From Oscillospiraceae bacterium (GTDB lineage Bacteria > Bacillota > Clostridia > Oscillospirales > Ruminococcaceae), in contig JAGAZJ010000012.1 in the NCBI GenBank assembly GCA_018110925.1, positions 1-63,504 of the forward strand: a DNA stretch of 63,504 nucleotides. The letters are read 5' to 3'. Shown one piece after another: positions 50,855 to 55,638 of this stretch; the stretch's first letter is position 1; every line of letters begins with the position of its first letter. The position numbers were made by a program, and so were the translations under genes. Under the pieces are notes generated by a model, which was given only the letters and a program-made list of their open reading frames with translations, was not told the DNA's origin and did no database searches.

Positions 50855-51745
50855 TTATTTCGTATCGAAACATCCGAGAAAGCGGTACTCGAAATCAGCC
50901 TTTTCCGTGATCTTTTTATACTGTTCGTAGCCGCAGTCGGAGCACTCTATGAGATAGTAATATTCCCCCAGTTCGGTCTTTCTCGGTCTGTCATGGACAG
51001 TTACCAGAGATGCTTTGCTGTCCTTTATCGCCGCCATGAGCACAGGGAGATCCTCTGCCTTTCCTGCCGCTATGAATGCGGTGCGGCTTCCCGTGGTGCG
51101 TGGCTCATCAAGAGTAAGCACATAGAAGCGTGTCTTGTTTCTGTCATTGTTCTGTATAGCTTCCGCCAGTATCTCAAGGCCGTAGACATCGACACAGGCC
51201 GCCGATGCTATGGCGGCACAGGTGCTGTCCTTTCCCTCGGATACTATCCTTGCGCCCTCAGCGGTGCTTGACACCTCTATGATCTCGGCATCGGGGATGT
51301 TCTCCTCTATCCACACCTTTCCCTGTGCAATGCCCTGCTTGTGTGAATAGACCGTCTTTATATCACCGAGCTTTGTACCGGGCAGTACCAGAAGATCCTG
51401 ATTTATGGGCAGTTCCACCTCTCCCGCCACCGATACTCCCGTGTGGGCTATCACTGTGTCCACATAATCCACGACTGCGCCGCCTATGGTGTTTTCCTGC
51501 GGTATCACTGCATAGTCGCTCTCGCTGTTTTCAAGGGAAACGACCGCCTCCTCCACCGTCCCGCAGGGTATGGTCTCCTGCCTGCCGAAAAACACCACGC
51601 AGGCTTCCTGAGTGTATGTGCCCTCGGGTCCGAGATAGCTCACCATTGCCGATGAATAGTCCTCACGTATCTCCGCAGGTGCGGTGTTTTCCGTACAGCC
51701 CGTAAATATCATCAGTGCCGCAAGTAAAAACGATGCTCTTTTCAT
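50855..51745 (-). CDS. Prephenate dehydratase with lipoprotein signal peptide
   Basis: A 296-residue protein whose body is a typical prephenate dehydratase: SYLGPEGTYTQEA (36-48), IPQENTIGGAV (81-91), the catalytic T205-R206-F207 (NKTRFYVL) and an ACT domain (about 220-295). The phenylalanine-binding ESRP motif of the ACT domain reads HDRP (251-254). The surprise is the N-terminus, RASFLLAALMIFTGCTEN, a clear lipoprotein signal with the lipidated Cys at residue 17. The enzyme would make phenylpyruvate from prephenate, but outside the membrane, where prephenate is not expected. It may instead be a sensor or binding protein derived from the enzyme. GAGGA precedes the ATG at 51745. Confidence 0.85.
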   Translation of the reverse strand: MKRASFLLAALMIFTGCTENTAPAEIREDYSSAMVSYLGPEGTYTQEACVVFFGRQETIPCGTVEEAVVSLENSESDYAVIPQENTIGGAVVDYVDTVIAHTGVSVAGEVELPINQDLLVLPGTKLGDIKTVYSHKQGIAQGKVWIEENIPDAEIIEVSSTAEGARIVSEGKDSTCAAIASAACVDVYGLEILAEAIQNNDRNKTRFYVLTLDEPRTTGSRTAFIAAGKAEDLPVLMAAIKDSKASLVTVHDRPRKTELGEYYYLIECSDCGYEQYKKITEKADFEYRFLGCFDTK

Positions 51746-51798
51746 GTATATCCTCTTTTCATCTGTCGTCATCGGTAGCCAGAGCTTCCGGTGCAGTA

Positions 51799-51885
51799 TC
51801 ATCCGCTCTGTAATATTGCTGTACAGATAACCGGAACCGACAACAGCATAAGACCATGCAATAACGGTATCAGCTTTCTTTTCAT
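51799..51885 (-). CDS. Possible 28-residue hydrophobic peptide
   Basis: A short frame (MKRKLIPLLHGLMLLSVPVI, then CTAILQSG) in the leader of the dehydratase gene. TGGGGTG lies 8 nt upstream of the ATG and a strong promoter is 20 bp further. It looks like a single membrane helix or a signal peptide stub. It has no Phe codons, so it is not a classical Phe attenuator peptide. It may be a small membrane peptide, a translational leader or chance. Confidence 0.4.
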   Translation of the reverse strand: MKRKLIPLLHGLMLLSVPVICTAILQSG

Positions 51886-51905: not shown

Positions 51906-51934
51906 ATTGTATCACTTGCCGTCATATATGTCAA
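51906..51934 (-). promoter_or_regulatory. Promoter of the dehydratase operon
   Basis: On the minus strand a perfect TTGACA (51929-51934) and TACAAT (51906-51911) are spaced by 17 bp. Confidence 0.75.
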
Positions 51935-51967: not shown

Positions 51968-51996
51968 TTGCATTTTACAGACAAATGGTGTATAAT
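51968..51996 (+). promoter_or_regulatory. Promoter of the double hydrolase gene
   Basis: TTGCAT (51968-51973) and a perfect TATAAT (51991-51996) are spaced by 17 bp, back to back with the dehydratase promoter. Confidence 0.75.
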
Positions 51997-52048
51997 GTTA
52001 GCATCATCTAACTGTATTAGAACACAAATAACCGAAAGGAAGATAGCT

Positions 52049-54103
52049 GTGAAATTTGACATCACAAAGCCCATGCCCTTCAAGGTCGGGCTGTATGAGC
52101 TGAACGGGAACGAGAACTATAACTTTCAGCTGAACCGCCTTGTAAACATGGACGGCGCCGACCTCGAACTTGTCAGAAAGGCTGCCGAGAGGATACACGA
52201 CCACAGAAGCTGGAAAAGAGTACTTCTCGGCACTGCGGTAAAGCTTGACAAAGCTGGCGATATCAAAAATGCGGCGGCATTTTACAGAATGTCGGAATTC
52301 TACATGGAGTGGGATGACCCCCATGCGCTCAGAGCGTGGAAAAGGGCAAGGAAACTGTTCTTTAAGTATTACAGGGATTATTTTACAGGCACAGACCCCG
52401 TGGTCGAATATACCGAGATACCCTACGACGGATACAAGATGCCCTGCCTTAAAATGAAGCCCTGCCATAAAGGGGCATACTCATCTGTCACGGAGCAAAA
52501 GGGCACGATAGTCATGAACGGCGGCTTTGATTCAAGCTTTGAGGAATTCTTCCCCCCGATGGAATATCTAAGGGAGAACGGCTACACCGTGTATCTCTTT
52601 GAGGGTCCGGGGCAGGGAGCCTGCATAAGACTGTACGGCGCTCCCCTGACAATGGAGTGGGAAAAGCCCGTGAAAGCCGTACTTGACCGCTTTGACCTTA
52701 CCGACGTATGCCTGATAGGGGCTTCTCTGGGTGGATACTTCTCGCCGAGGGCGGCGGCATATGAAAGGCGCATCACGAGCTTTGTAAGCTGGCCTGCATT
52801 CTCATCGCTGACAGCAAATCTTGATGCCTTTATGAAGCACAGTTCCTCCGCGCTGGAGGCTTCACGTCACATCGGCAAGGCTCTGGACGGTCTGTACCGT
52901 CTTAAAACCGAAAGAAACAGGCATGACCGCTTCACAGCCCTGTTCAAGACATATTATCATCGTCTGGGGTGCAGGAGTTTCAACGAAGCGGTGGATATAC
53001 TTGAAAGCATAAACACAAAGCCCCTCGGCAGGCTTATAACTCAGGACGTGCTTCTTCTGGGCGCAGAAAAAGATCTGAGCATCCATTATTCGCTGGCAGA
53101 TCTGCAAAAGGCGGATATGCCAAATGCAAGGTCTGTCACCACAAGGATACTCACAGACAAGGAACAAGCCTCCGATCACTGCAACTGCGGCAATCAGAAG
53201 CTTGCAATGGATATCATACTTGACTGGCTCGATGACGTGAAACACGGAAGAGCCGTGACACCTGCATCATTCCGTGATGAATACACTGAATATATCTCAG
53301 CGCATCCATACAAGACCGCAGATGCGTTCAGATACATACTTGACGGCGATGCCGAACAGTCGATAGTCTTTTTCAACGGTCTGAATATGCAGGAGATGTG
53401 GGTGCCGTATATGAAGGCATTTTCAGGGACTCACCGTGTTCTTATGATGGAGTATCCCACCGCACCAAAGACAAACAACGAGCTGCTCGATGCCATACAC
53501 GCACTGTTCGGGAAACTGGGCATATCAAAGCCTGTGATAATAAGCTCCAGTGACGGCGGAGTGCTGGCACAGCTCTATCTGCGCCGTTTCCCGGATGATA
53601 TAAGCGCTCTTGTGATGATGACCACCGTGACCATAGACTCAAAATACTGTGAGGACACCAGAAAGGAACTGCCTGTACTGCCCGCACTGCAAAGATTTAT
53701 CGGTGCAGTGCCGTACAGTATGCTGAGAAAGCGGCTCATCGGCACGGTCACAGGCTATCTGAACGATGAGACCCATGAAGAAAAGCAGTACGGCAGGAGC
53801 TTCCTTGAGACCGTTGCAGACAACGGCTACAAAGATAAATTCATAAGCGCCATAGGGCTTGTGGGCGATATGTCCGTACAGCCTGTGATGAGGGCAGAGG
53901 AGTTCGCTCCCGTTGAGGGAAAGATACTGCTCTTACAGCCCGAAAAGGATATATTCACAGAGGCGGACCGCAAAAAGCTCAATGACCTGATACCCACAGC
54001 AGAGCGCCACACCATGAGGGGCGGTCATCTGTCATTCATCATGTGTGCAGATGAGCATATCGCTCTGATAAAAGGTTTTCTTAACCGTATCAGCCTGTCA
54101 TGA
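52049..54103 (+). CDS. Tandem alpha/beta-hydrolase fusion protein
   Basis: A 684-residue cytoplasmic protein made of two alpha/beta-hydrolase units. The first, after a helical N-terminus, has the nucleophile elbow GASLGG with Ser226 and the preceding strand VYLFEGPGQGA, as in FrsA/DUF1100-like hydrolases. The second starts near residue 430 (EQSIVFFNGLNMQEMWVPYM) and has a variant elbow SSSDGG around Ser501, where the usual first Gly is Ser. The last His (TMRGGHLSFIM) could complete its triad. The start is GTG at 52049 behind AAAGGAAG. The gene converges on the next with a 6-bp overlap. Substrates are unknown. Confidence 0.82.
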   Translation: MKFDITKPMPFKVGLYELNGNENYNFQLNRLVNMDGADLELVRKAAERIHDHRSWKRVLLGTAVKLDKAGDIKNAAAFYRMSEFYMEWDDPHALRAWKRARKLFFKYYRDYFTGTDPVVEYTEIPYDGYKMPCLKMKPCHKGAYSSVTEQKGTIVMNGGFDSSFEEFFPPMEYLRENGYTVYLFEGPGQGACIRLYGAPLTMEWEKPVKAVLDRFDLTDVCLIGASLGGYFSPRAAAYERRITSFVSWPAFSSLTANLDAFMKHSSSALEASRHIGKALDGLYRLKTERNRHDRFTALFKTYYHRLGCRSFNEAVDILESINTKPLGRLITQDVLLLGAEKDLSIHYSLADLQKADMPNARSVTTRILTDKEQASDHCNCGNQKLAMDIILDWLDDVKHGRAVTPASFRDEYTEYISAHPYKTADAFRYILDGDAEQSIVFFNGLNMQEMWVPYMKAFSGTHRVLMMEYPTAPKTNNELLDAIHALFGKLGISKPVIISSSDGGVLAQLYLRRFPDDISALVMMTTVTIDSKYCEDTRKELPVLPALQRFIGAVPYSMLRKRLIGTVTGYLNDETHEEKQYGRSFLETVADNGYKDKFISAIGLVGDMSVQPVMRAEEFAPVEGKILLLQPEKDIFTEADRKKLNDLIPTAERHTMRGGHLSFIMCADEHIALIKGFLNRISLS

Positions 54104-54846: not shown

Positions 54847-55638
54847 ATGAAACACATAATGAAGACCATCGCTGTGTCTGCGGCACTCTTGTGCATGGCA
54901 ACGGCGGGCTGTTCACAGACCGCAGGTCCTGCCGATACGACAGTAAGCGCAGAGGCCGTTCAGGATCTTGTGCTCACAGAGAACAAGATAGGCACTCATG
55001 ACGGCTACGGCTATGAGCTCTGGAAGGACAAGGGTGACACCAGCTTCACAGTAAGCAGCGGCGGCACATTCTCCTGTGAATGGAGCAACATCAACAATGC
55101 GCTCTTCCGCAGAGGTCAGAAATTCGACTGCACCAAGACCTACAAGGAAATGGAAAAAATGTCCGTTGAATACGGTGTGGACTACTCCCCCGACGGCAAC
55201 TCCTATATGTGTGTATACGGCTGGACAAGAGACCCCCTGATAGAATTCTATATCGTGGATTCATGGGGCAGCTGGAGACCGCCCGGAGGAACTGCCTACG
55301 GCACGGCGATCATAGACGGAACAGCATACGACATATACAAGACCCTGAGGGTAAATCAGCCCTCCATAGACGGCACAAAGACCTTTACACAGTTCTGGAG
55401 CGTCAGAAAGACCAAGCCCGAGCCTGTGGAGGGCAACAAGCTTGAAGGCACTATCAACATATCCAAGCACTTTGATGCCTGGGAGCAGTGCGGTCTTGAA
55501 ATGGGCAAGATGTATGAAGTGGCGCTCACCATAGAGGGCTACCAGTCAAGCGGCAAAGCAGACGTTTACAAGAACGACCTGAAAATAGAGGGAGAATATG
55601 CCCCTGCCGATGACATCAAGGTTACTGTGATACCCTGA
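54847..55638 (+). CDS. GH11 endo-1,4-beta-xylanase lipoprotein
   Basis: A 263-residue family 11 xylanase. The nucleophile Glu133 lies in [13 protein letters not shown] and the acid/base Glu230 in [13 protein letters not shown]; the thumb region ([12 protein letters not shown]) is present too. It cleaves internal xylan bonds with retention. The signal [17 protein letters not shown] has a lipobox with Cys22, so it should be anchored on the outer face of the membrane, which is uncommon for a GH11 enzyme; no dockerin or binding module is attached. GCGAGGTG precedes the ATG. It is the extracellular counterpart of the intracellular GH67, GH39 and GH43 enzymes in this window. Confidence 0.95.

Follow-up and report, generated by a model that had tools for sequence, protein, structure and literature searches.

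A predicted lipoprotein form of prephenate dehydratase in gut bacteria

Prephenate dehydratase (PDT) is a core enzyme of phenylalanine synthesis and normally resides inside cells. Export of shikimate-pathway enzymes by bacteria has nevertheless been described, and Stocker et al. call it an enigma (PMC10520331, available text). The same text reports exported CM-CDT fusions from nine proteobacterial species, all nine of which also hold cytoplasmic chorismate mutase-PDT (CM-PDT) genes; the fusions tested showed no feedback by phenylalanine or tyrosine, and the authors give their role as unknown. A secreted chorismate mutase beside a non-secreted CM-PDT appears in the accessible part of PMC5700972, and a title cited in the accessible part of PMC7356843 refers to phenylalanine made from phenylpyruvic acid by ruminal bacteria. 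Aromatic amino acids had no significant effect on EqPdt, from a rubber-tree powdery mildew fungus (PMC11980547, available text). Among the open-access papers that our searches listed, including the available portions of PMC11980547, PMC5700972, PMC6000758, PMC7356843 and PMC10520331, there was no report of an exported bacterial enzyme of the Pfam PDT family, PF00800. In bacteria the published examples that we encountered were chorismate mutases and enzymes of the PheC type; the exported true PDTs considered here are a separate family, of which about 80 members were read from species genomes.

The window, that is, the whole 63,504-nucleotide stretch of an Oscillospiraceae contig that was analysed, carries a candidate for such an enzyme (Table 1). 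A sequence-only reading had identified it as a PDT with a lipoprotein signal, and the position and length it gave were exact; the ORF lies on the minus strand. PF00800 matched with 189 bits against a cut-off of 25.2 (E 8.9e-56, residues 35-212) and was the only Pfam match of this protein at E<=0.001; the NCBIfam prephenate dehydratase equivalog model gave 196 bits, under its cut-off of 219. The core motifs GPEGTYTQEA, PQENTIGG and TRF were all found in the translation. The 296-residue protein begins with MKRASFLLAALMIFTGC, including Cys17, and the proposed lipobox was recovered there by our hand-made rule, with a Shine-Dalgarno sequence at the signal-bearing start. Met34, directly ahead of the core, has a Shine-Dalgarno-like site too, so that a second, signal-less cytoplasmic product of this gene is possible.

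Table 1. Features of the exported PDT locus (positions in the window)
Feature	Position	Strand	Basis
Exported PDT gene, 296 aa	50855..51745	-	ORF list, translation, Pfam
Signal peptide, residues 1-16, MKRASFLLAALMIFTG	51698..51745	-	sequence; hand-made rule score h=2.63
Cys17 codon, predicted lipidation site	51695..51697	-	hand-made rule only
Shine-Dalgarno AGAGGA ahead of signal-bearing ATG	51751..51756	-	upstream sequence scan
PDT catalytic domain PF00800, residues 35-212	51110..51643	-	Pfam
TRF motif, residues 205-207	51125..51133	-	invariant in family alignment
ACT-like regulatory domain, ~residues 222-293	50867..51082	-	profile alignment to solved PDTs
HDRP replacing ESRP, residues 251-254	50984..50995	-	sequence, family alignment
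Promoter-like site TTGACA-17-TACAAT	51906..51934	-	consensus match only
28-residue hydrophobic peptide ORF, not conserved	51799..51885	-	ORF list, comparison with relatives

Other elements of the initial description fared unevenly. The ACT domain gave no Pfam match at E<=0.001, but the alignment of the family profile to the solved PDTs 2qmw, 2qmx and 3mwb extends across their ACT regions, and the ESRP position does read HDRP. The promoter, described as strong, is a sigma-70-like site with 11/12 matches, but the scan that detected it gave 3 sites where chance alone predicts 2.3. The 28-residue hydrophobic peptide is present as an ORF inside a longer listed one; nothing resembling it was detected in the 84 small ORFs that lie ahead of 80 related genes on the same strand, and a conserved leader peptide upstream of the exported PDT was rejected. 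Pfam confirmed the NifX-type, DUF2809 and AAA ATPase genes downstream, which say little on PDT function. Elsewhere in the window, a GH11 xylanase with a lipoprotein-like signal lies at 54847-55638, and an ORF of 711 residues (51968-54103), which diverges from the PDT gene, matches alpha/beta hydrolases over the N-terminal half and shows, by eye, a second hydrolase-like stretch.

Of 180 relatives turned up by scanning species genomes, the best 80 (44-66% identity) were kept and read; since the analysis covered these best 80 of 180, and one of the six search peptides was taken from the signal region, the sample leans to close relatives. Signals and lipoboxes were called by the hand-made rule, which is neither SignalP nor LipoP. 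It assigned a signal and lipobox to 67 of these best 80, a hydrophobic leader without lipobox to 12 and neither to 1, so that the signal peptidase II-type site noted in the window protein recurs in most relatives. At a stricter threshold a hydrophobic leader was present in 78/80, versus 0/78 cytoplasmic PDT rows (44 monofunctional and 34 CM-PDT, with the window genome's own CM-PDT counted twice, as L002 and L024), in a test that demanded a leader ahead of the core, for which 39 monofunctional rows had no room. In five CM-PDT control rows the lipobox pattern occurred but no hydrophobic stretch. Of the 80, two fell short: L029 is truncated by the end of its contig, and L095 has a hydrophobic stretch but no ATG. 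For L033 the rule chose the start wrongly and a leader without Cys was seen by eye; at the spirochaete loci L051-L053 a leader ending in AQA precedes the core. A Shine-Dalgarno site was found upstream of the signal start in 59/78, against 11% of random 15-mers, and internal start codons near the core in 23/78, only 1 of them with such a site. Two relatives, KH1T2 and YRB3002, come from records titled as named strains rather than metagenome-assembled genomes (MAGs). Homologues do not, then, start after the signal region, and we conclude that export as a family trait is well supported by sequence. Two exported-PDT copies were seen in each of two assemblies, UBA1244 (L080 and L087) and RUG12488 (L029 and L037).

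The catalytic core is preserved throughout. The nearest solved structure by phmmer was 4lub, a putative PDT (E 5.2e-35), which the family profile matched at 1.4e-54. An alignment of 65 of 83 sequences, from which the two congeners and all rows that were truncated, fused or near-identical had been removed, is invariant at G39-P40, P82-Q-E-N85, S134-H135, Q141, S160-T161 and T205-R-F207, and Q137 is kept at 90% or more. The motifs TRF, PxEN and SHxQ are thus conserved in the family (83 and 65 sequences); PxEN, SHxQ and the other kept positions presumably correspond to active-site residues of the Escherichia coli enzyme. A T to A change in TRF abolished EqPdt activity (PMC11980547, available text). 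Dehydratase activity of the exported PDT is likely.

The regulatory domain differs from the canonical form. In place of the phenylalanine-binding ESRP motif, the 83 exported sequences have HDRP (75), HERP (3), HARP (2), HDSP (1), HDCP (1) or HDRT (1). HxRP was found in 0/78 cytoplasmic control rows and is, on this comparison, a family mark of exported PDTs. Loss of ESRP is by itself not special to exported forms, since ESR occurs in 50/78 control rows (37/44 monofunctional, 13/34 CM-PDT), 28/78 have something else and the window genome's own CM-PDT reads VSMP. The PDT of E. coli becomes desensitised when ESRP is altered (PMC11980547, available text).

To place the family, a tree was built from 139 rows, 82 exported and 57 cytoplasmic (40/44 monofunctional and 17/34 CM-PDT controls). 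A single branch, with support 100, separated all the exported proteins from the cytoplasmic ones; by this tree the exported proteins share one origin. Bacterial families are intermixed among them. Record titles assign the 82 rows to Bacillota (68), Actinomycetota (7), Spirochaetota (4), Chloroflexota (1) and no phylum (2), to be read as up to four phyla, since most rows are from MAGs, into which contigs of other organisms can be binned, and Chloroflexota is represented by one contig (L100). The window protein is 63% identical to the spirochaete copies. It shares 69% identity with the exported PDT of a Lachnospiraceae genome, whereas the CM-PDTs of the same pair share 33%; against a congener (G005) the values are 67% and 80%. 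Such discordance points to horizontal transfer. Titles indicate ruminant sources for 55/80 relatives (27 RUG, 25 RGIG or named ruminants, 3 RUI), a count with no background rate alongside; RUG, RUI and RGIG are presumably ruminant genome sets.

The distribution is patchy. Within the genus, 19/20 genomes had some PDT match and three the exported type (the window's own genome, G005 and G010); the congener G003 has a decayed remnant (L025:84-245), about 50 residues of the N-terminal core followed by stops, at a contig end. Within the family, exported PDT was detected in 3/119 sampled genomes at E<=1e-40 (own, G010 and G054). Among 291 genomes sampled from the class, matches at E<=1e-25 were found in 119; all except the own gene were at E 1e-42 or weaker and <=39% identical, and 29 of these PDTs were included among the cytoplasmic controls. 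No relatives were found in viral contigs, and plasmid and phage records yielded PDTs only below 60% identity (80 and 17 records; 27-34% among the 10 matches listed of each), on which grounds phage or plasmid carriage was rejected.

Neighbouring genes of the 80 loci were clustered and compared. No conserved neighbourhood emerged, so no transporter is tied to the exported PDT, and operon context was rejected as a clue to function. AlsD genes without visible signal lie near 3 loci. Three close kin (L080, L087, L091) have acetolactate decarboxylase fused to PDT behind one lipoprotein-type signal; L080 passes the NCBIfam acetolactate decarboxylase cut-off, and L087 and L091 were judged by sequence. 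PDT is also fused to regions resembling manganese pyrophosphatase (L081), glucose-1-phosphatase (L086) and a beta-N-acetylhexosaminidase-like GH3 enzyme (L099), each under the NCBIfam but over the Pfam cut-off, and to a HAD region (L100). The partners are small-molecule or glycan enzymes behind the leader.

An exported HAD of the L100 type was also found in the flanks of 8/80 loci (10 hits in 886 kb) and in 0/40 control regions of carrier genomes (554 kb), a borderline difference (p=0.051); 30 controls were starts of arbitrary contigs, 10 lay on contigs carrying shikimate or PDT genes, and 12/40 were shorter than 16 kb. The 10 hits compare with 0.40 expected from 59 hits in ~130.8 Mb of carrier genomes, an expectation chosen after seeing the data and with L080, L087 and L091 not independent. 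Among genomes, this HAD was present in 39/50 carriers (the own genome G000, G005, G010, G054 and those in which 46 of the 80 loci lie) and 3/60 non-carriers (16 from the genus, 20 from the family and 24 from the class, with G003 left out). Within the genus the figures were 2/3 carriers and 3/16 others (p=0.15); the genome co-occurrence is confounded by habitat. One 861-residue ORF (L237:131-2713, genome G528) combines an exported HAD region with what are, by eye, D,D-carboxypeptidase-like and C39-like peptidase regions.

The explanation we favour, with belief and doubt about evenly balanced, is an extracytoplasmic, lipid-tethered PDT, horizontally spread among gut bacteria, many of them from ruminants, that turns outside prephenate into phenylpyruvate. 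The PF00800 enzyme would be exported by Sec and tethered through a lipid on Cys17 to the membrane's outer face, which would place its active site outside the cell. Prephenate might reach it from lysed or leaking neighbours or from the own cell. Dehydration and decarboxylation would give phenylpyruvate, to be taken up, presumably, and transaminated to phenylalanine or put to other use. Loss of the phenylalanine-binding motif would fit a scavenging enzyme freed from feedback control. A benefit through salvage is suggested by the fusion partners behind the leader and by the exported HAD near some loci but none of the controls. More tentatively, gut bacteria of up to four phyla may have in common a mobile collection of exported core-metabolism enzymes for cytosolic metabolites from lysed neighbours, an extracytoplasmic salvage. 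We propose just as guardedly that PDT and HAD phosphatase might belong to this collection, as might acetolactate decarboxylase and pyrophosphatase-like or sugar-phosphatase-like domains at some loci, sometimes fused to one another, for surface processing before uptake.

The PDT fold could instead work outside the cell by binding or signal generation, the lipoprotein notifying a membrane sensor of prephenate as a mark of lysed neighbours, with catalysis, if kept, resetting the signal. A sensing role is what Stocker et al. propose for exported CM-CDT enzymes (PMC10520331, available text), and STAS, SpoIIE-type and RsbW-type genes do occur near some loci. However, neither STAS (7/80 loci vs 1/40 control regions, p=0.27) nor SpoIIE (5/80 vs 1/40, p=0.66) was significantly enriched, and partner-switching regulators were rejected as partners, as were MATE transporters, by comparison with the 40 control regions. 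The sequence-only reading had allowed either a surface enzyme or a binding/sensing protein; the family-wide leader backs the surface location, and the kept catalytic motifs suggest turnover and favour an enzyme, so that we regard a sensor as unlikely.

Alternatively, the exported PDT might support overflow phenylalanine synthesis, with prephenate that escapes from the producing cell itself as its substrate, an idea raised speculatively for exported Pseudomonas aeruginosa enzymes including PheC. The genomes of the 50 carriers bear on this. In the own assembly (1.67 Mb, 69% complete), the second, signal-less pheA envisaged at the outset was found as a 373-residue CM-PDT with PF00800 over cut-off, and the exported PDT is not the sole PDT. 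Two chorismate synthase matches were also seen there (G000:C4:39525-40541 and C15:33619-34650), as in G005 and G010. Chorismate synthase was detected in 47/50 carriers and a CM_2 match in 43/50, which speaks for overflow. Against it, 38/50 carriers have a further PDT over cut-off; 27 of these copies belong to genes that also match CM_2, and the other 11 have no leader by eye; the exported PDT stands alone in 12/50, some perhaps through missing sequence. The spirochaete family of G508 cuts both ways. PDT was over cut-off in 4/11 genomes, all four leader-bearing and none cytoplasmic, and G506-G508 have chorismate mutase and chorismate synthase, but 7/11 have no PDT match whatever. On balance overflow seems to us quite improbable.

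An exported chorismate mutase was rejected as a partner: 25 chorismate mutase reading frames, read at 30 loci of carriers, showed no clear signal start, in a search with PF01817, which may miss AroQ-gamma, although in one (L186) a hydrophobic stretch lies ahead of the likely start. An outside pathway would, in the carriers as far as they were read, have one step.

As a competition tool, the enzyme would destroy prephenate, and related exported enzymes acetolactate and phosphorylated metabolites, denying neighbours leaked intermediates. The fusions to acetolactate decarboxylase and to pyrophosphatase-like and phosphatase-like domains behind the leader would suit this, but the products stay usable, and neighbours would have to depend on leaked prephenate; we consider it very improbable. 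A wrong start or an assembly error joining a signal to a cytoplasmic PDT, for which Met34 and its Shine-Dalgarno-like site might speak, is scarcely credible given the leader in nearly all relatives, including both named-strain records, and the near absence of Shine-Dalgarno sites at internal starts.

Taken together, the occurrence of the exported form in distantly related gut bacteria suggests that a normally hidden metabolite is processed outside the cell. If extracellular prephenate is real, the view of how intermediates move between gut bacteria would change, and the fusions to other leader-bearing enzymes, together with strains KH1T2 and YRB3002, make the question testable.

Among known systems, cytoplasmic PDT with ACT (PheA; 4lub, 2qmw, 2qmx) is closest in sequence family, catalytic motifs and domain order; unlike it, the window-type PDT is predicted to be exported, has HDRP at the ESRP position, forms its own clade and falls under the NCBIfam equivalog cut-off. 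PheC of P. aeruginosa and the CM-CDT fusions share the same predicted reaction outside the cytoplasm, and fusion carriers, like exported-PDT carriers, also have cytoplasmic CM-PDT (PMC10520331, available text). PheC is, however, of a different family, probably evolved from solute-binding proteins, an ancestry the exported PDT does not share, and the fusions, unlike it, join chorismate mutase to a PheC-family dehydratase; the word 'lipoprotein' is absent from the available text on them (PMC10520331). Freedom from phenylalanine feedback, reported for those fusions, would be expected of the exported PDT. EqPdt resembles it as a secreted PDT with the TRF motif and an altered ESRP (NSRP), but is fungal, has no predicted signal peptide and is translocated into plant cells (PMC11980547, available text). 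Exported chorismate mutases (AroQ-gamma) are likewise bacterial exported shikimate enzymes, but a different enzyme.
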